IMG/VR virus record: IMGVR_UViG_3300035698_004931
Location: 1 to 35,435 of that record
Length of the DNA: 35,435 nt
DNA from: a virus
Direction: 5' to 3' (one strand)
Shown here: piece after piece, positions 1,183-33,258 of the stretch
Numbering within the stretch: the stretch's first letter is position 1
Layout: each line of letters starts with the position of its first letter
Notes under the pieces: generated by a model
The model's database searches: none
What the model saw: the letters and a program-made list of their open reading frames with translations, nothing else
Told to the model about the DNA's origin: nothing
Translations under genes and position numbers: made by a program

Positions 1183-2700
1183 TTAATAGTTAGTTTCAAA
1201 AGATTTTACGTCGAAATCCTCATCCTGTAGACTTCCAGGATCAATGATCCAAGCGCTAATAGTCCTCCCTTTCAGCCTCATTCTAACACTGGACGCTCCT
1301 AGGTCGTGCAACACGCTAACCATTTCGGCTTCTGTAAGAAGAGTAAAGCCCTCCCGCTTAACATAGGCCCGGATGTCCTTAAGGCAAACATGTATATTAT
1401 TCTCATCATCTTGATACACATTGCTTGATAATAACTGCTCTTTATCCTTGGTTAACCGCTTAGCAATAAAGTCTTTCAGATATTCAATGAACATTCCTTT
1501 CGGTGTCGCATCCTTCGGGACAGTTATAACGCTTTTTCGAGCAACAATGGAATCTATAAAATCATCCCACGCTTTAGCGGACACTTTCCCCGGATACATG
1601 CCTAAGAACTCCGCGCATAATTTACGCATAGTAATTTGTGACATGAGCGTATCAAACCCGGCCCGCAATTGGATGCGCTTTTCGTTCATGTCTACGATAA
1701 TAATAGCAGGCTCCGTCATTAGGTGCGTCACGTCGCCAATGGTCACGCCTTGCAGCGGTACGCCTTGCATTTTACCAATACCGAAGGGACGTTGAATACA
1801 TAGTTTTCGGTCACATCGAGAGCACAGCGGCTCCTTTTGGCATGTGTAATGATAGGAATCGCCCCCGGTAGCCATTGATTCACTTATCCGCTGAATCTCT
1901 CCAGAGGGTAACGGCTCCACTAAATCGGCGTTGTACTCCATTAATGGAACATCGAAAGAGTCTTGAAACTTCATATAGAAATAAAGAGCGAATTGAAACA
2001 TAGCAGTATTACGCATGCCCTCTTGTACACCCTCCGCATCAAGTCTTTGTAAGCAGGGCGGGCCATCTGCAAATCGAGAATCCGCTTTTAGGCCCGTATC
2101 GAGTGACAAAAACCGGGCCTGATTAGTTATTTTCTTCTTAGTAACAACCGCTAAAAATACCTTGAATGGTTGTTCTTTACCTTGTATAAAGGCCTGTCTT
2201 TCCTTACCGTGGAATGGAAGATTAATCCAGTGGCCCACGTCATGCCCTTTGAGTCGTTCTCCCGTCGGTGGGAATATTTCAGAACCTCCGTAGCCCAAGT
2301 AGGCGCTTATCTGCATTAACTTAGCAATAATAGGCTTGGCGGGAACGGGCTTATCAAAGAAAAACCATACATGCACCCCGCCGGATTTCGACCGGGTTAT
2401 AACACCGGGGATTGATTTGTCGAGTAATTTCTTTTCGATAGCGGCGCAATCTAAATCTTTATAAACATCGATATCAATAGCCGCGAATTTAATATGGTGT
2501 CCGTCATCCATTAAGGGTATAGCGCCCAAACTGGGCCACCCCCCGGAAAAATGATGTTTCCATGTTTCAAGGGGCGCCGCCCCTACAACAGTGTAGGAGC
2601 GGCATTCTGCTTTACCCTTTTCGTTGACGCCGCCTGTAAGATCGGTTGCGCCGTGATTCGCTTGTGAGCCTTCAAAAAGGCCCCTTAATTGGTCATGCAT
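1183..2700 (-). CDS. AEP-superfamily DNA primase
   Basis: This 505-residue protein carries the archaeo-eukaryotic primase signature. AIDIDVY (residues 74-80, D76 and D78) supplies metal-binding aspartates, SKSGGVHVWFFF (104-115) supplies the S-x-H nucleotide motif around H110, and GHWINLPFHG lies at 156-165. A cysteine cluster at C287, C293, C296 and C301 should bind zinc, as in many phage primases of this type. The enzyme would make primers or extend strands at replication forks. The remaining 200 C-terminal residues have no motif I recognise; they could be a helicase-interaction or DNA-binding region. Its neighbours in the same operon are a candidate ssDNA-binding-like protein, an exonuclease and, further upstream, an SNF2-like helicase. 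No polymerase is visible in the window. Confidence 0.85.
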   Translation of the reverse strand: MHDQLRGLFEGSQANHGATDLTGGVNEKGKAECRSYTVVGAAPLETWKHHFSGGWPSLGAIPLMDDGHHIKFAAIDIDVYKDLDCAAIEKKLLDKSIPGVITRSKSGGVHVWFFFDKPVPAKPIIAKLMQISAYLGYGGSEIFPPTGERLKGHDVGHWINLPFHGKERQAFIQGKEQPFKVFLAVVTKKKITNQARFLSLDTGLKADSRFADGPPCLQRLDAEGVQEGMRNTAMFQFALYFYMKFQDSFDVPLMEYNADLVEPLPSGEIQRISESMATGGDSYHYTCQKEPLCSRCDRKLCIQRPFGIGKMQGVPLQGVTIGDVTHLMTEPAIIIVDMNEKRIQLRAGFDTLMSQITMRKLCAEFLGMYPGKVSAKAWDDFIDSIVARKSVITVPKDATPKGMFIEYLKDFIAKRLTKDKEQLLSSNVYQDDENNIHVCLKDIRAYVKREGFTLLTEAEMVSVLHDLGASSVRMRLKGRTISAWIIDPGSLQDEDFDVKSFETNY

Positions 2701-20817: not shown

Positions 20818-23139
20818 TTAAGCCTTTCGCCGCATGGCGCGCTCTACTGCCGCGCCTATCTGCTGAGCGGTTTGTCTCTCAGAAATCATTACATTACCGC
20901 CCGTCTCATCTTTTAGGCTAACGGTTATATTAACATTGCTGCTCGTCTCTTGCGCCTGCATTACATCGGGCATTCTGGACAATGGAATAACAGCCTCCGG
21001 CCCTGATTCCCCTAATATAGTGTTAGTCGGTTGCGTTACGATTCCTCCGGTTGCCATAGGCAAAGGAGTAACCGCCCCGGCGCCGGATGATCCGCCGCCA
21101 AATAGATTACTTAATATTCCACCACCGCCCCCACTGCCGAAGCCCTTAATAACATCTATCATCGGCCCGACTATTAATTGACGAGTGAGAATGCGGTTAA
21201 TATCATTTAGTACTGAATCCGCCCACTGTTCAAAGCCAAAAGAGCCAGTTGAAAAGAACGTGGTGAATGTGTCCTCCATGCCTTTTACACTGTTCGTGAC
21301 AGCGTCCTCTACATCGGAGCCAACATCCTTAATGGCGTCCCTGTATTTGTCCAGGCCCTCTATGGCTCCCTCTGTCCAGGTTCGATGAATAGGCTTATTT
21401 AACTCTTCCTCTAAGTTTTGGATATCTCCAATGATGCTTTTTATATTTTTACTTTCCGCCGAATGCATGGAGAGGCCAATTTTACGAGAAATATTCAGGG
21501 CGTCTATGGAGGATGCAGCGTCTTTATATTCTTTGATTCCTTGTTTACGGGCGTCATTTAACAAAGTTAAATTATTCCGCTCTGTTATTAAGTCATCCAG
21601 GGTCTTGACCACTAATTCCCTGTGCGCCCGTTCTTCATTTACCTTTTTAATTTGAGCGGCTAATTCAGCCTGTGCAGTTATATTATTATAAATGGTTGTC
21701 GTCAGGCCCCGCAAAAGTTCCCCGGATTGCTTTGTTCCCATTAACCCGGATTCCCTCAGTTGCTTGGTAGCGTCTAATTCGGCCTGTAGGTGTCGATAGG
21801 CTTTATTTTGAATGTCCAAGGCAACGCCATTCTCTAAAACGAAATCAGTCTGACGCTGTAAGCCCATCGTGGATGACATTAAAGAATTCCTGTATTCATC
21901 CAGGCCCTTTATGGCTTTTTCCATAGCGGCCTTTTTCTTTTCTTTATCACTAAGACCGCCATCCCCTACATCATCCCAGTCGGGCTTATATCCATTCTCT
22001 TTCGCCCCGAATGCTTTAGCGGCGGCGCCTGCCTTTTCCTGCTCGAACAGTTTATTTATATCGTTGAATGAAACGCCCTCCCAAACGGACAACGCCCGGT
22101 TAGCGATTTGATCGTAGAATTCATTTATTCCTGTATAGAATTTAGGCAATAAGGACAGTACCCACCCTATGGACTCGCCTATATAAAGGAAAGACTTTCC
22201 AACGATTCGCCCGAACGATTCAGCCAATCCACTAGAAACAAGATCATTAAATAATTTAGTAAAGGATTTCGACAATTCTGCAAGCGACTGATTTATCCCA
22301 CTATTGGCGATTGTAGCGGACAGCCGAAAGATGGACGTATTGAACCGGGAGAATTCGGCAATAGTACCCATAGCCGCATCTTTCGCCCCCTTGCCAAAGC
22401 GTTCGTGCAGAACCTTTGCCATTTTAGGGAGCATGTCCGCTGCCGTGACCTGTCCCATTTCGAGCATTTTACCGAGTTCTCTGGTAGTCTTGCCCATCGC
22501 TTCCGCCGCAATATTAAAGGCGCCGGGGATACGTTCGCCCAATTGGCCCCGGAGTTCTTCGGCTTGCACCGTGCCCTTAGATATCATCTGCGTAATGGCT
22601 CGAATGGCTCCGCTTGTATCGTCAGCCGATAAACTGAGCGCTCTAGCGGCTTCAGAAACACCAATAAAGATATTCTTCATCCTATTGCCTTCTAAGGATG
22701 TCCCGCGCGCTGACGCTGTTAACTGTGCGTATGCTTTGGCCGTGGTGGCTAAGTCAAGGCCTAACGTCTCCACGGTTTCATCTATAAAGGACATGTGTAG
22801 GGCAGCGTCCGCCGCTGAATCAGAAACGGCTCTAATAGCAGTTGCCAACCGTTCCATTTTAAGACCTGCTTCAACTAGGGCTTTACCACTTAGCGCCACG
22901 CCAAAGACAGCAAAGGCGCCCGATAGTGAAAACAGAGCCTTACGCAATGTAGCAAAGACGGCCTTTAATTTAAGAAAGCCGCCCTTCATTCGCTTAAAGT
23001 GCTTTTGCGCCGAGTCCGCCATGCTCCGTAAATGCTTACGCGCAGCGGCAGATAATCCTTTTAAGGATAACTTGAACTCATCCGCGCCCTTTTTGGCTTT
23101 TTGGGAATCGATGAATAAGGCTATTCCTGTTTTAACCAT
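20818..23139 (-). CDS. tape measure protein
   Basis: The 773-residue protein has basic helical segments at the N-terminus (residues 1-60), a hydrophobic stretch (about 65-95, ALFSLSGAFAVFGVALSG), the conserved tape-measure core TQMISKGTVQAEELRGQLGE at about 185-205, coiled coils, and a glycine-rich C-terminal region (GFGSGGGGGILSNLFGGG). It sets tail length and passes into the host membrane during ejection. By the usual rule of about 0.15 nm per residue the tail would be near 115 nm. Its ATG overlaps the stop of the frameshifted chaperone gene by one base. Confidence 0.95.
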   Translation of the reverse strand: MVKTGIALFIDSQKAKKGADEFKLSLKGLSAAARKHLRSMADSAQKHFKRMKGGFLKLKAVFATLRKALFSLSGAFAVFGVALSGKALVEAGLKMERLATAIRAVSDSAADAALHMSFIDETVETLGLDLATTAKAYAQLTASARGTSLEGNRMKNIFIGVSEAARALSLSADDTSGAIRAITQMISKGTVQAEELRGQLGERIPGAFNIAAEAMGKTTRELGKMLEMGQVTAADMLPKMAKVLHERFGKGAKDAAMGTIAEFSRFNTSIFRLSATIANSGINQSLAELSKSFTKLFNDLVSSGLAESFGRIVGKSFLYIGESIGWVLSLLPKFYTGINEFYDQIANRALSVWEGVSFNDINKLFEQEKAGAAAKAFGAKENGYKPDWDDVGDGGLSDKEKKKAAMEKAIKGLDEYRNSLMSSTMGLQRQTDFVLENGVALDIQNKAYRHLQAELDATKQLRESGLMGTKQSGELLRGLTTTIYNNITAQAELAAQIKKVNEERAHRELVVKTLDDLITERNNLTLLNDARKQGIKEYKDAASSIDALNISRKIGLSMHSAESKNIKSIIGDIQNLEEELNKPIHRTWTEGAIEGLDKYRDAIKDVGSDVEDAVTNSVKGMEDTFTTFFSTGSFGFEQWADSVLNDINRILTRQLIVGPMIDVIKGFGSGGGGGILSNLFGGGSSGAGAVTPLPMATGGIVTQPTNTILGESGPEAVIPLSRMPDVMQAQETSSNVNITVSLKDETGGNVMISERQTAQQIGAAVERAMRRKA

Positions 23140-23977
23140 TATTTTTTACCCTTCGTCCCCATCATATCCAAGTAAGCCCGGTCTACCTGTTGCAAGATAC
23201 GACGATAGAACGCCCTATCTTCTATTACTATAATTTCTTCCTCATCCAAAAAAGAAGATATAGACTCGTAAGTTATCGCCCCTCTTCCAAAGCCGACGGG
23301 GCGCGAGTGGCTTAGTTCCCAAAAAGACCGCCAAAGGTCGCCATTATCTGGCTCTACCTCCGGCTTTTCCTCATCCGGGAGCCGTCCCTCCCATCCTTCC
23401 TTTTTTAATTCCTTGAACCATTCATCATCTGATAACTTGTCTCCCTCTTTTTTATGACCAAACTTGACGGAGTAAGTGAGACAAGCCGTTAGTTTTTTAC
23501 TATTTCCTCTTCCGCCGCTGCCTCATTGCCGAATAACTCTTCATCCTGGCATAGATCACAGATAAACAAAAGAAAGGCCTCATCATTGAACATGGCATTA
23601 TAACCAGATTCGACCGTGTAAGGGGCGTCCTTGGTCGTGGATGCTTCCTTAAATCCTGTCCAGGCATGCAAGCCAAACATCGCAACGGCCCGGATGTCTA
23701 TCTTATCGATATCGGTCAGCGTTAAGGCCCCGCGCCGAATGCGCTTTTTGTTCTTTAGGGCCTGATCCCGTAACCAGCGCCGATATGGTTCATTGGGCAG
23801 AAAGGATACTGTTACCGTGCCGCACTCTTTTTTAGCAACGGGGGACTCTTCCGCCCACTCATACCACCCGTCCGATAATCCATAAATATTACTTTCGTCC
23901 GCATGGAATATATGAACGGTGCGCTTTTCGGTGTAGTTCTTTTTCTGCTTAGTGGTTAGATCAATTAAGATAGACAT
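23139..23977 (-). CDS. tail assembly chaperone GT, -1 frameshift product, 279 aa
   Basis: The bases after the 162-residue chaperone gene hold an open frame of 117 residues (from LTACLTYSVK to DMMGTKGKK) without its own start. It is reached exactly by a -1 shift at AAAAAAC (23492-23498). The join is complement 23977-23492 then 23492-23139, with base 23492 read twice. The shift gives a fused G-T protein as in lambda gpG/gpGT, which guides tape measure and tube assembly. The T part is acidic and aromatic (DDEWFKELKKEGW, DLWRSFWEL). It ends where the tape measure gene begins, the normal layout. Confidence 0.85.
23489..23977 (-). CDS. tail assembly chaperone G, 162 aa
   Basis: The zero-frame product ends with VKN and a stop directly after the slippery site. 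The protein is soluble with basic and acidic patches; it has no catalytic motif. Position between the tail tube and tape measure genes, length, and the frameshift signal at its end identify it as the short tail chaperone. It should be made in excess over the frameshifted form. Confidence 0.85.
   Translation of the reverse strand: MSILIDLTTKQKKNYTEKRTVHIFHADESNIYGLSDGWYEWAEESPVAKKECGTVTVSFLPNEPYRRWLRDQALKNKKRIRRGALTLTDIDKIDIRAVAMFGLHAWTGFKEASTTKDAPYTVESGYNAMFNDEAFLLFICDLCQDEELFGNEAAAEEEIVKN
23492..23498 (-). promoter_or_regulatory. -1 programmed frameshift site (A AAA AAC)
   Basis: On the minus strand the codons are GTA AAA AAC TAA, so the heptamer A-AAA-AAC is in the correct phase for tandem -1 slippage, one codon before the zero-frame stop. 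After slippage the next codon is CTA and the frame stays open for 117 residues. A small H-type pseudoknot could form just downstream (ACGG with CCGT, CTTG with CAAG), but its stems are only 4 bases each. Confidence 0.85.
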
Positions 23978-23984
23978 TTGTTTT

Positions 23985-25160
23985 TTATACCTCTATTGCA
24001 TCGATTTGTAGGGTGTAATCATACCCGGTGTCTTTGTTAACAGGCGCGTCAAAATCCATCGGCAATACTACATCATCTTCTCCACCCGATGCATCTGGAC
24101 TGCCTGCGTTAAAGTATACCTTTGGAATTGTGAATACAAAGGCGTTTCCGTCAATATCAGTGACGCGCCAAGTAAGGATTACGGGCGTATGATCAACTAA
24201 CTTATTGTAGAGGGTATGATCTTCAAAATAGGCCTCTACAGAGCCGCTCTGTGTGAACTTGCCGCGCCCGATTCCGTTAGAATACTTGCTTCCCAATTGG
24301 GGGCGCTCACGTAGCCCGTTATCAATGGTAGAAACGATTCCTTTAAGAGGAATACCGATAGCCGCATTATCCATTAAGATAGTGCCAACATTAGCGGAGG
24401 CCGTAACCTGTTCATTCGTGCTCGCGTCAGCAATTGAGCCCGCTATGCTGGAATCTATCGGGACGCCTTGCTTACCTTGAATTTGAAAGACACCGTTTAA
24501 GATGCCGAGAGCGTTAAGATTGAGCGTCATTCCACCCACGACACAGCCGGGATAATAGATGTATTTGGTAATGTCGGTAAAGCCCTTTTGAATAAGATAG
24601 GAATGCTTTTCCACTCCATTTCTTATGTATTTTCCCGCAACTGTAAAGGGTGTTCCGGCGGCTTCGTCTACTAGACTAGAAGCGCCATTCGCTACGGTCA
24701 ACGCACCATCGGCGCGACCAGTAACTCGAAATAGCCCGTTATTTTCGGCGTTATAGGCGTCCTTTACATTAACCCACATATTGCGAGTGAACCCGGCTAA
24801 CTCTGTGAAGCCGTCCCCTGAATCCCTTATCTGTTGAGTAGCCGCATCGAATGAAACGGAAGCCGCTGTAACAGAAGCCGTAACAAAACTTGACCGCAAG
24901 GCGCCTTCTATCAACTTATCATAATCCCCGAAAATTAATTCATAGTTAATAGCGCCGCCACCGCTGGCCCCTAATTCAAGATTAGCGTTTACCTGTGCAT
25001 CCTTTCGGATGGTGTCTGTATTAGTGGTCTGCTTGATGTGGGCCAAACTCTCGCCGGAAAAAGGAATCTCTTCCATAGCAGGGGACGACGGCGTTTCCCC
25101 CCACGCGCTTTCTTCATATATCGCTAATTGTGTCTGGTCACTCTCGGCGTTGTTTCCCAT
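23985..25160 (-). CDS. major tail (tube) protein
   Basis: The 391-residue protein begins with a segment typical of phage tail tube proteins (QTQLAIYEESAWGETP, then EEIPFSGESLAH and TIRKDAQVNANLELG). It is strand-rich, has a GYDYTLQIDAIEV end, and lies directly before the chaperone genes. Tube proteins form stacked hexamers around the DNA channel. Its length is larger than many, with an Ala- and Thr-rich middle (residues 90-170) that may be an extra surface domain. Confidence 0.88.
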   Translation of the reverse strand: MGNNAESDQTQLAIYEESAWGETPSSPAMEEIPFSGESLAHIKQTTNTDTIRKDAQVNANLELGASGGGAINYELIFGDYDKLIEGALRSSFVTASVTAASVSFDAATQQIRDSGDGFTELAGFTRNMWVNVKDAYNAENNGLFRVTGRADGALTVANGASSLVDEAAGTPFTVAGKYIRNGVEKHSYLIQKGFTDITKYIYYPGCVVGGMTLNLNALGILNGVFQIQGKQGVPIDSSIAGSIADASTNEQVTASANVGTILMDNAAIGIPLKGIVSTIDNGLRERPQLGSKYSNGIGRGKFTQSGSVEAYFEDHTLYNKLVDHTPVILTWRVTDIDGNAFVFTIPKVYFNAGSPDASGGEDDVVLPMDFDAPVNKDTGYDYTLQIDAIEV

Positions 25161-27388: not shown

Positions 27389-28507
27389 TCACATTGAAGC
27401 GTGTATGCATCGGCCTACTAATAATTCTTTGGCTTCGCGTATATTGGCTTTAATGCCCTTATCCGTTAAGTACTCAACCAATCCGGGAGGCTCCATGCGG
27501 AGGAAGTGATCCCGCCTAGCGCTGATTGCATCGGCCAAGGCCGGATTTGCAATTTCTCGAATTACGTCGGCGGGAGTTTGACCGCTCTTGACATTCCAAT
27601 CAGTCAGAGCGTCTGATAAGGTCTCCCATGTGCTGGCATATTCATAATCTGCCTCTACCGCTGGGACATCTACCGGGGATGCTAACCCGTTATCAATTAA
27701 ATGCATAAATGGCAAGCCCGCCCTTAATTCGTTCACACTCCATTGACAATAAGCCAAATCATGCGCCCATTGTTGCCTATCGGGATGCTGTGGCGTTTCA
27801 ATTTGCTCTAAGTCACGGCATGCCAACGGATCAGCCTTCGTTTTTCCTTGTGTAAATGCCGAAACCCCGTGCAGCAAGGCTTCAACAACCATATTAGAAT
27901 CATACGTTACAACCGCCCACGCGCCCTCTAAGTCTTCCCTAAAACTACGGTTCGATATAAGGCACCCTTTGGGTAAGGCCCCGTGGCTCTTATCCCGTGG
28001 ATGTGGGCGAAGCACAATTTCTCTGCCTGTTATCTTCTTAAGCCGTTCGATTGCCAAGGTAAACCAAGGCTGTCGTGAGTGCCCGTCCCAAGTATCAACG
28101 TGTTGATGTGCAAGTAGAATGTGTCCCTCTTTGTTGTCTTGCCACGGGCGAAGTTTTATTTTTAACTTAGACCAACGATCACCCGGCATACTGCCTATTT
28201 GATCACCATAGGCATGTAGGCCGTTTCTCGTCATTGCGAAATATGAACCGGGCGCCCATCCACGCCGTAGAAATCCATCTGAGATAGATAAGGATGGTTT
28301 CCCGGTTGCTATTTGATCTCTATGAATCTGCGCTATGGTGTGATTCCACCCAACCGTAAGCACGATGTCAGCAGGCTCGTATTCTTTGTAGGCCCCAAAG
28401 TAACGCCATCCAATAGAACAGCCGTTTTCGGAGAGCCAACTAGTAAACTGCCTTAAGAGTGCATCGCTACGGCTTGGCGGGCCGGGTGAAAAAACAAGAA
28501 CGCGCAT
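27389..28507 (-). CDS. KpsC-like glycosyltransferase-fold protein, 372 aa
   Basis: The order of motifs resembles the KpsC family of beta-Kdo transferases: LTVGWNH (about residue 50), SISDGFLRR (about 78-86), a GLHAYGD segment followed by DRWSKL (about 120-125), ILLAHQH (about 133), LRPHPRDKSHG (about 165-175), TYDSNMVVEALLHGVSAF (about 203-220). KpsC enzymes add Kdo to a lipid in capsule synthesis. Here the gene lies between head genes and is much shorter than bacterial KpsC repeats. It may glycosylate the capsid or alter surface sugars; both are guesses. A paralogue of the first half is at 10396-10866. A TGAGGAG site precedes the start. Confidence 0.6.
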   Translation of the reverse strand: MRVLVFSPGPPSRSDALLRQFTSWLSENGCSIGWRYFGAYKEYEPADIVLTVGWNHTIAQIHRDQIATGKPSLSISDGFLRRGWAPGSYFAMTRNGLHAYGDQIGSMPGDRWSKLKIKLRPWQDNKEGHILLAHQHVDTWDGHSRQPWFTLAIERLKKITGREIVLRPHPRDKSHGALPKGCLISNRSFREDLEGAWAVVTYDSNMVVEALLHGVSAFTQGKTKADPLACRDLEQIETPQHPDRQQWAHDLAYCQWSVNELRAGLPFMHLIDNGLASPVDVPAVEADYEYASTWETLSDALTDWNVKSGQTPADVIREIANPALADAISARRDHFLRMEPPGLVEYLTDKGIKANIREAKELLVGRCIHASM

Positions 28508-30505: not shown

Positions 30506-30739
30506 CTATATTACAGTACCGGGAGGGAGTGGGTCTAATTGAAGGGATTCTCTTAGCAGTTCATCTGTAACGGGCACTCTGTCGGCCTTTTCCACGTCTA
30601 TTAAATTATTGCGGCATAGTTGGCCCGCCCGTACTATCCATGCTTTCGACTGGCCCCATGTGGCGGGGGAATCATCATAAGCATCCCGGTAAGCATTTAT
30701 CCAACCTATGGCCTGTTTAACATTCATCTTTTTAAGCAT
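30506..30739 (-). CDS. hypothetical protein, 77 aa
   Basis: A small helical protein with three tryptophans in the first half (GWINAYRDAYDDSPATWGQ). I do not recognise it. Its ATG overlaps the stop of the MuF-fusion gene, suggesting coupled translation, and it ends just before the candidate promoter for the scaffold gene. Confidence 0.6.
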   Translation of the reverse strand: MLKKMNVKQAIGWINAYRDAYDDSPATWGQSKAWIVRAGQLCRNNLIDVEKADRVPVTDELLRESLQLDPLPPGTVI

Positions 30740-33258
30740 TATTTAATACTCCGCATTAGTGATTCAAACTTACTCGATACTCCCGGCGTGAAATACTCGA
30801 ATATCTTTTTGAATAATGGCCCATACGTTTTATGGGTAGTCAGCGGCCAATACTGCGCCCATGCCTCCATCGATTGCATGGGGTAGCGTGTCGTAGAGCC
30901 TAAATCACGCACCCGGTACTTGTTAAAATAGTCGGCGGAGTGACCGAAACCGATCTTTGTTTTAGTCATAGCGGCAAAGTAATCGTTTAAGGAGCCGTAT
31001 AGATCATTTTCTACGCTGCTATAACCGCCAACTAATCCCCGCGCGCTACGCAAGAAAGACCGGGCGTCCTTCTTTTCAATGGCGGCAATCAACTCGGCGC
31101 GGTCGCCTATAACCGGGGCCATCTGCTTTAATTCAATATCAGTGAAAGGATTATTTCCGGCCTTTCTCGTAGCCTTTATCTTATCGTCAAGAGCGGCCAT
31201 CTTATCCGGGGCCTTGTCGTATGTGCTTTTTGTCCAAGAGGCCTTTTTTGCTGCATTGTACTTATTCATTGTACTCTTAGAACGGGCTATCATTCGTTTG
31301 ATTGATACGGCCCTGCTATCAACATACTTAAACGTTGTAGACTGCTGCATTACATAAGCAATCTGCTCAATGTCAGCATTGCGCATCTGCCGCAATATGC
31401 TAAGGTAGTCTTCCGCTTGCCCTTTTCCATGCATCATTACCTTTAAGAATTCTAACTGCGTCTTTCGAGTGGCCCCCGGCATTCCTTGCACTACTCGAAC
31501 CCATGCGAACTCTTTCTTTTCGAGCACGGCTTCTACATTGCCTAATAGCGTCCGCGCCGCCTTATCAATCTCCTCATGAGCAGCACATGACAAGCCGGGC
31601 ATGTTGGCAAGCCTTGTGCCCTGCAATACTTGAGTATTGGTCATATCGATATGATGCATAGTCTCATGGAGCATCGTTAAGGATTGATCCTCATAACTAC
31701 CCTTCACCATCTGTATAGTTCGACTCGATGGCAAATAACGAGAAGGTTTACTGGAGACTTCGTCAACGATGGCATTCAACAGCGGCGCCTTATCCACTAT
31801 GCTTCGTAGCCGATCATCATAATTCACCAACGCCCCTTGCAACTTATCCCGAACGTCTATATTTTGCTTTTTGAGTGCGGGCATAATGCCTGTTTTAGTA
31901 ACAGGCTTCGGCTTGGGAACAGGCTTCGGCTTGGGCTTCGGCTTGGGCTTGGGCTTCGGCTTGGGCTTCGGCTTCGGCTTGGGCTTCGGCTTGGGCTTCG
32001 GCTTGGGAACAGGCTTCGGGGCCGGGGTCGTTTTCGGTAGGCTCTTTTTCACATAGGCGCCAAGGTTCAACGGACGACCAGAGTTATCGGTCAGTTGCCG
32101 CACGTTTTTTATGCGGCCCTCTTTCCATAGTTCCTGTCGTCTTGGGCCAAGGGCTTCTATTTGGCGGGCCTCCGATTGATCTTTCAACCATGCGTTATAA
32201 TCGGTTTCTCTTGCTACGGCCCCATCCATTGCCGCCCGTGTCTTGCCCTTCATTGTATCAATCTGAGCGTCACTGAATCCGCGCTTTTTCAACCGCTCTC
32301 TATACCGTTTTTGGAAAGTGGTATTTTCAATTTTCTTTCCTGACAACTCCGCCCAAGATGCTGTAACGGGGTTAAGTGTGCTACGACAAGCCCAGTGTCG
32401 GGGAGGGCCATAGTGCAGACCACCGTAAGCGTCAGTATTGGCGAAAGCCTTATCATGCCCAACCGGGCGATAGTCCACGCCGTCCTTATTGTGAACGATA
32501 AGCCACGTCAGGCCGGAATATGACTTGCAAATATTGGTAGTGCTAGAATCCAACGTAGAAATCTGTTGAACCTTCTTGATGACTTGAGCGCTGCCCTTGT
32601 CAGTGTACAAATCCCGGCGGGCCTTATTTGCCACCGCCTGCACGGATGTTCTAACCAAGGCGGCAGCGTCCCGCTGATATTTTTTCATGAGACCAGCACT
32701 AGGCGGGGCTGTTAACACGCCGTCTTTATATTTGCCCTTCGCTGTGCCACGAATCCGCCGGATGATTTGGGCGTTGGTCTCCCCGGACAGTACCCCGGTT
32801 CTTACCGCTGCTTCAAACTTATTTTGCAAGCCTATTTTTTGCCTGCTCCACCATTGCGAAGATGGAGCGCCAGCAATAAGCGTACCATCCACCGACGCCT
32901 TAACTACCCGTGGATCAAGGCGAACCGATAGGATGGGTGAACCGATAGCGTGATTTATTACATTTTTTGCATAAGTTTTTTCGGTCTCGTAGACAGTTCT
33001 AAGAGCCTTTAATCGGGCTGTGCTTATAGTCTTATAATTACGGGCTATTGTGGCCCGTGTCTGTTGTAGGAGGGCTTCTGTTCGTGCAGCATTAAAGGCC
33101 GTCAGTTTCTTTGAGCCTCTAAGCGTTGCAATAAGTTCTTTCTCTACTTTACGCAGTGCGGTCAACGTTTTTTTACGCTCTGACTCAGACAATCTGTCCA
33201 AAGTAATAGCGTGTAAATTAAAATCATCCCGTATAACATCATTGACCGCTTTAACCAT
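30739..33258 (-). CDS. MuF-like head protein fused to a putative zincin metallopeptidase domain
   Basis: The 839-residue protein has three parts. Residues 1-310 are a MuF-type minor head domain with a helical start and a characteristic end: STLDSSTTNICKSYSGLTW, then YGGLHYGPPRHWACRSTLNP. Residues about 405-455 are a lysine-proline dipeptide repeat linker. Residues about 470-839 hold LHETMHHIDM (H531, E532, H535), the HExxH zinc-peptidase motif; a possible third ligand is E798 in MEAWAQYW. MuF-fused effector domains carried in the virion and injected with DNA are known in some phages, and this is a good candidate. The gene follows the portal, as MuF genes do. Whether the peptidase is active is inferred only from motifs. 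Confidence 0.85.
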   Translation of the reverse strand: MVKAVNDVIRDDFNLHAITLDRLSESERKKTLTALRKVEKELIATLRGSKKLTAFNAARTEALLQQTRATIARNYKTISTARLKALRTVYETEKTYAKNVINHAIGSPILSVRLDPRVVKASVDGTLIAGAPSSQWWSRQKIGLQNKFEAAVRTGVLSGETNAQIIRRIRGTAKGKYKDGVLTAPPSAGLMKKYQRDAAALVRTSVQAVANKARRDLYTDKGSAQVIKKVQQISTLDSSTTNICKSYSGLTWLIVHNKDGVDYRPVGHDKAFANTDAYGGLHYGPPRHWACRSTLNPVTASWAELSGKKIENTTFQKRYRERLKKRGFSDAQIDTMKGKTRAAMDGAVARETDYNAWLKDQSEARQIEALGPRRQELWKEGRIKNVRQLTDNSGRPLNLGAYVKKSLPKTTPAPKPVPKPKPKPKPKPKPKPKPKPKPKPKPKPKPVPKPKPVTKTGIMPALKKQNIDVRDKLQGALVNYDDRLRSIVDKAPLLNAIVDEVSSKPSRYLPSSRTIQMVKGSYEDQSLTMLHETMHHIDMTNTQVLQGTRLANMPGLSCAAHEEIDKAARTLLGNVEAVLEKKEFAWVRVVQGMPGATRKTQLEFLKVMMHGKGQAEDYLSILRQMRNADIEQIAYVMQQSTTFKYVDSRAVSIKRMIARSKSTMNKYNAAKKASWTKSTYDKAPDKMAALDDKIKATRKAGNNPFTDIELKQMAPVIGDRAELIAAIEKKDARSFLRSARGLVGGYSSVENDLYGSLNDYFAAMTKTKIGFGHSADYFNKYRVRDLGSTTRYPMQSMEAWAQYWPLTTHKTYGPLFKKIFEYFTPGVSSKFESLMRSIK
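31904..32018 (-). repeat. lysine-proline codon repeat
   Basis: About 115 bases of repeated AAG-CC(N) codons in the MuF-fusion gene encode a KPKP linker of about 38 residues. The two variants AAGCCC and AAGCCG alternate irregularly. The stretch is a likely hotspot for length variation, and the rigid extended linker separates the head and peptidase domains. Confidence 0.92.

Follow-up and report, generated by a model that had tools for sequence, protein, structure and literature searches.

The present study concerns a stretch of viral DNA of 35,435 bases, an IMG/VR virus record (IMGVR_UViG_3300035698_004931; hereafter the window; GC content 0.468), in which two overlapping frames lie on the minus strand between the genes for the tail tube protein and the tape measure protein. 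These frames very probably encode the tail assembly chaperones G and GT, the latter produced through a programmed -1 frameshift at the slippery heptamer A_AAA_AAC. This conclusion is supported by the agreement of three observations: the homology of the T frame, its location with the tail tube gene on one side and the tape measure gene on the other, and the sites already predicted in print for related phages. The first-pass annotation, made from the letters of the window, had proposed the same pair of chaperones, and its coordinates, heptamer, stop codon and -1 frame were reproduced here; the strand, which it had left unstated, is the minus strand.

Slippery site, T frame and predicted fusion protein

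The 3' end of gene G reads GTA AAA AAC TAA, so that a heptamer of the form X_XXY_YYZ is present in the overlap, in phase with G and followed at once by the stop codon, with the second frame at -1. The window contains AAAAAAC or GGGAAAC, in any phase, at 13 places on the minus strand and at six on the plus strand, and among these sites a stop triplet follows directly only at 23498. Upon a slip of -1 on A_AAA_AAC, the frame would read CTA ACG GCT and remain open to the TAA at 23141-23139, the last base of which is the first base of the tape measure ATG, an overlap of one base (23139). Thus, an open frame of 117 residues ending at the tape measure start was recovered as first described, and the predicted GT fusion has the length given for it, 279 amino acids (aa). 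The earlier statement that T has no start of its own also holds: the sole open reading frame (ORF) of at least 20 aa beginning with ATG, GTG or TTG in the T frame has 36 aa, from the TTG at 23249.

The -1 frame is homologous to known tail chaperones. T matched the PHROG family phrog_3817, "tail chaperonin", with an expectation value (E) of 7.8e-12, and Pfam Phage_TAC_18 with E 9.3e-6 and 26.1 bits, just below the cut-off of 27. The 279-aa fusion matched phrog_8233, a tail assembly chaperone profile of 271 aa, with E 5.9e-9 in one stretch from residue 57 to residue 244, spanning the G/T junction; this profile is presumably itself a G-T fusion, because four of the six G sequences and all six T sequences of our alignments match it. 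The G alignment A2 has six members, one of them from the window, and all of these matched phrog_313, "Tail assembly chaperone", at E 0.01 or better. Profile searches of the PDB gave nothing credible, the best match of the G profile having E 0.53 and not being a tail chaperone. In addition, across the gap of 347 nucleotides (nt), one fixed frame stays open in only 4 of 5000 dinucleotide shuffles. Judged from sequence, the open T frame is more than chance, because it is rarely open in shuffles, matches a tail-chaperone profile and recurs in relatives, and homology is stronger evidence here than the shuffle statistics. The features are collected in the table.

Table. Positions of the G/GT elements and flanking tail genes in the window
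Feature	Position	Strand	Details
Gene G, tail assembly chaperone, zero-frame product	23977-23489	minus	162 aa, ATG to TAA
Slippery heptamer A_AAA_AAC	23498-23492	minus	In phase with G; final sense codons AAA AAC
Stop codon TAA of G	23489-23491	minus	Right after the heptamer; first two bases enter Leu codon CTA of the -1 frame
T region, C-terminal part of GT	23139-23492	minus	117 codons plus TAA, -1 frame, from the C of the heptamer
Possible stimulatory hairpin	23434-23487	minus	10-bp stem, 23487-23478 with 23443-23434; 34-nt loop; 4 nt after the heptamer
Tape measure protein gene	20818-23139	minus	773 aa; phrog_2335 E 1.6e-66; Pfam TMP_3 and Tape_meas_lam_C above cut-off
Tail tube protein gene	23985-25160	minus	Directly upstream of G; Pfam Phage_tube_2 E 4.4e-39; phrog_290

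Conservation in relatives and rival explanations

With the window fusion as query, 26 phage records matched (E 10 or better); with the T protein of Iggy the number was 234, and with that of Achromobacter phage 83-24 it was 282. Viral contigs were scanned with the window fusion, the tape measure and tail tube proteins, T of L003, T of 83-24 and the alignments A3 and A4 as queries; these scans returned only L002, L003 (repeatedly) and the IMG/VR copy of 83-24, one scan being empty, and a single scan for relatives in genome contigs gave no match. The survey comprised 26 loci, namely 24 phage loci hand-picked from the listed matches, some of which entered on weak matches (E up to 2), and the contigs L002, obtained via the tape measure, and L003, obtained via the tail tube, neither of them via T. 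The hand-picking aimed at diversity of host and identity and was not random, and related phages are not independent. L008, L030 and L031, from the same contig as L003, and L009, from the same phage as L006, were left uncounted. CRP-2 (L026), which is counted among the 26, was rejected as a relative, its match being a chance one inside an unrelated long ORF.

Site and frame relation are conserved in the relatives. A G frame of 132-173 codons in -1 relation to T was found in 25 of the 26 loci by a junction script that sought only G frames in this relation, and an in-phase heptamer stands at the G/T junction in 24 of the 26, divided equally between A_AAA_AAC (12) and G_GGA_AAC (12). All 24 of these heptamers end in AAC. 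Escherichia phage Halfdan, with E. coli MG1655 K-12 as its recorded host, has AAAAAAC immediately 5' of TAA. The G stop follows directly in 20 of them, one codon later in two (Mwe-JY26 and Vibrio PS10B.1) and 13 codons later in two (FP1 and M6). Mutated slippery sites in close relatives, named in the first-pass annotation as evidence that would count against frameshifting, were looked for, and the site of L003 (IMGVR_UViG_3300017813_000006), the closest relative found, is identical: L003 and the window share the identical GTAAAAAACTAA and GTAAAAAACTAACGG, and AAAAAACTAACGG is also identical, although protein identity is only 39% for G and 42% for T. T of L003 was cut at 1336 (first sequence range) in the alignments A1 and A4, its frame being open to 1414. 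With T of Iggy and of 83-24 as queries, the matches begin at the slipped codon (query residue 1) in all 80 tblastn rows listed.

Annotation was present in 21 of the 24 fetched phage records, or in 20 without CRP-2. A joined coding sequence for the fusion is annotated in three of these 20 (RcThunderbird, KL1 and Loki), T is given as a separate ORF in 16, and in HD01 T is left unannotated. The 16 records with a separate T are what would be expected if T were translated alone, by re-initiation after the G stop or from a non-standard start, and were not fused to G. However, the T frame of the window offers nothing beyond the 36-aa ORF mentioned above; among the matches listed, homology extends back to the slipped codon, which coincides with or precedes the T starts seen in the annotations; and a heptamer is kept in 24 of the 26 loci. 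Separate translation of T is thus very unlikely.

The break between the frames might also reflect an assembly or sequencing error in the run of A's, or a broken gene, because such runs are prone to error and the window comes from an IMG/VR virus record. This explanation is already largely refuted and scarcely credible, since the break recurs, with the frame relation unchanged, in numerous phage genomes from separate depositions, and no long run is present in the 12 loci with GGGAAAC. The latter loci, with three A's only, likewise argue against slippage of RNA polymerase, instead of ribosomes, as the source of the fusion; six consecutive A's are present at the site in the window, but polymerase slippage usually needs runs of about eight or more, and we consider this route highly improbable. 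Ribosomal frameshifting at the heptamer remains by far the best explanation for the paired frames.

Downstream RNA and observations against frameshifting

In the window, the fold of the 60 nt containing the possible hairpin has an energy of -14.8 kcal/mol, with a z-score (z) of -2.42 and 6 of 200 shuffles as good; compared with synonymous recodings, the same 60 nt gave z -1.88, with 9 of 200 as good. The small pseudoknot suggested in the first-pass annotation found no support, as H-type pairing of the hairpin loop with the next 45 nt was as good in 620 of 1000 shuffles, and the loop-to-downstream pairing of L003 was as good in 709 of 1000. This test was a simple one, with one stem each for the window and L003 and with other pseudoknot forms not searched, and it gives no support for placing the window among the sites at which a pseudoknot further downstream stimulates the -1 shift. 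In its place, a simple hairpin is possible.

The family was analyzed as 25 sequences with a heptamer (the 24 loci and the window), which were not adjusted for relatedness. With dinucleotide shuffles, the first 60 nt after the site showed a mean z of -1.68, with 12 of 25 below -2; a second stretch, displaced downstream by 60 nt, gave -1.78, and the other 27 offsets lay between +0.29 and -0.78. With synonymous recodings that preserve the protein, the mean z was -1.44 for the first 60 nt (10 of 25 below -2) and -2.48 for the first 120 nt (16 of 25 below -2), while nt 62-122 taken alone gave -0.97 (6 of 25); for the two 60-nt stretches that follow, it was -0.18 and -0.20. Thus, in this stricter test the family signal was kept and that of the window was weakened. 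The pairing of the downstream RNA differs between lineages, and the hairpin after the site of L003 is much stronger than that of the window (z -5.38 versus -2.39, dinucleotide shuffles). These results support the view that the family carries an RNA element 3' of the site, a family signal that does not by itself show such an element in the window. The type of heptamer was not significantly associated with immediate folding (mean z -2.41 for 13 AAAAAAC and -0.88 for 12 GGGAAAC sequences; Mann-Whitney p 0.077).

As a separate observation, five KL1-like loci (L012, L014, L015, L017 and L022) share a possible long-range stem, AAGTTCT/AGAACTT, which lies in the first 120 nt or so and encloses inner hairpins. 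This stem has no support from covariation, because it is nearly invariant and coding, with no formal count of covariation made.

Several observations weigh against programmed frameshifting in the window. The earlier description of the heptamer as "textbook" stands for the motif and not for its strength, as in E. coli A_AAA_AAC is reported to be much less shift-prone than A_AAA_AAG (PMC5009743, excerpt), although the host of the window may not be E. coli. The Rhizobium phage RHph_X3_2 (L028, 1115-1135) has the same -1 layout of G and T and no in-phase X_XXY_YYZ heptamer; a run of six T's there may permit slippage of a single tRNA at U_UUU. With T of L003 as query, 24 of 35 tblastn matches begin after residue 1. 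The match of the window G alone to phrog_313 is weak (E 0.0058), and a two-sequence AlphaFold model of G (alignment A3) reached a mean predicted local distance difference test score of 46.6, too poor for use. Of the four window stretches folded against shuffles, the 60-nt one alone stands out, the three longer ones giving z -0.92, -0.66 and -0.16; the 120-nt fold is also ordinary relative to synonymous recodings (z -0.26), and a 130-nt fold pairs the hairpin arm otherwise. Because the longer stretches are ordinary, the recoding z is weaker and the 130-nt fold pairs differently, the hairpin of the window is plausible but marginal.

Genomic neighbourhood, known systems and proposed mechanism

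Upstream of G lie the genes for the tail tube (Phage_tube_2), tail terminator, neck and head-closure proteins, and downstream of the tape measure gene those for a DUF2460 protein, a hub protein like gp84 of phiJL001, an NlpC/P60 protein and a tail-tip protein with an Rcc01698-like C-terminal domain. The set of genes around G and T suggests a siphovirus-like phage whose tail module occupies this region. The order tube, G, T and tape measure is found in the window, CcrBL10, Mwe-JY26, Erythrobacter L02 and RHph_X3_2, and KL1, Loki, M6 and others have one extra gene ahead of the tape measure. ARAGORN found no tRNA genes in the window.

Three further features of the window were recorded. A 372-aa ORF (27389-28507, minus) between the head-tail adaptor and major capsid genes had no hit in either PHROGs (E cut-off 0.01) or Pfam (E cut-off 1); it is separated from the adaptor gene by 394 bases, in which one same-strand ORF of 66 aa is listed at a threshold of at least 60 aa. 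An archaeo-eukaryotic-type primase is encoded at 1183-2700 (minus; Pfam AEP-TOTE E 4.2e-12, phrog_21866 primase E 9.1e-72). The best match of an 839-aa head-morphogenesis protein (30739-33258, minus), phrog_241, covers residues 1-401; weaker matches to head proteins reach residues 547 and 655, and for roughly the last 180 residues no match is listed.

Comparable sites have been predicted in other phages. An AAAAAAC beside the stop codon was predicted for gp12/gp13 of Acinetobacter phage Loki and noted for IME_AB3 (PMC5313236). Loki thus resembles the window in its site, and its fusion is annotated as joined, whereas in Loki an additional tail-completion gene separates T from the tape measure gene and the fold of the 60 nt downstream is stronger (z -3.48 versus -1.88). 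For gp18/gp19 of Burkholderia phage KL1, GGGAAAC directly before TGA, a -1 fusion and a stem-loop were proposed (PMC3483164); the position of the heptamer immediately 5' of the stop and the -1 fusion are shared with the window, and the heptamer, the TGA stop and the extra gene before the tape measure are not. A possible AAAAAAC site was likewise mentioned for a Paenibacillus phage (PMC6003738), and sites of the AAAAAAC/GGGAAAC type were predicted for phiCbK-type phages (PMC3556154). CcrBL10, a phiCbK-type Caulobacter phage, has, like the window, AAAAAAC followed by TAA and a T that adjoins the tape measure gene, but its genome is of 221 kb and its identity to the window is 23% for G and 28% for T.

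The window is likened to phage lambda by its logic and not by protein comparison, and the heptamer of lambda, GGGAAAG, is unlike that of the window. In lambda, G is in excess and GT is low, both bind the tape measure protein, and T recruits the tail-shaft protein (PMC5009743, excerpt); a low-level -1 shift and a fusion linking the tape measure to the tail-shaft protein are the points in common.

Beyond the sequence, the homology of the -1 frame and the conservation of site and frame relation shown above, we infer the following course for the slippage, how often it happens, what G and GT do and how the stop codon and the RNA act on it. Most ribosomes would translate G and terminate at the TAA. 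A small fraction, with the Lys and Asn codons in the ribosome, would slip back one base on A_AAA_AAC, miss the TAA and read CTA ACG GCT and onward through T, resulting in a low abundance of the 279-aa GT. If lambda is a guide, numerous G and a few GT molecules would coat the tape measure protein, with the T part bringing the subunits of the tail tube, and both proteins would leave before the tail is finished. The adjacent stop and, in many relatives, folded RNA in the next 120 nt or so probably help to set the G:GT ratio.

The combination of AAC and stop invites the idea that a stop codon in the decoding site aids slippage. In other words, XXXAAAC and the stop might form one unit, in which the ribosome slips with the stop in its decoding site, and competition with the release factor, together with an RNA fold of about 120 nt that keeps its position while its pairing differs between lineages, sets the G:GT ratio. 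We regard this joint proposal as doubtful, and raise it because the stop is adjacent in 20 of 24 loci, AAC is present in all 24, the recoding z is below -2 in 16 of 25 sequences, and a plant virus provides a precedent, its shifting being influenced by a stop located 3 nt beyond the -1 site (PMC5009743, excerpt). In the PRFect training set, sites lie on average 26 nt from the stop (PMC10885494, excerpt), and direct adjacency thus looks like a trait of this family more than a general trait of tail chaperones. No earlier description of the family-wide stop adjacency with the 120-nt fold was seen in the open-access literature searched.

Taken together, the window is one more good example of a frameshift already well known in phages, and the annotation of its 279-aa chaperone is corrected, as plain ORF calling would miss the fusion. 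Moreover, the stop-adjacent AAC sites of this family provide a small natural series of variants with which the tuning of bacterial -1 frameshifting by stop codons and downstream RNA could be studied.

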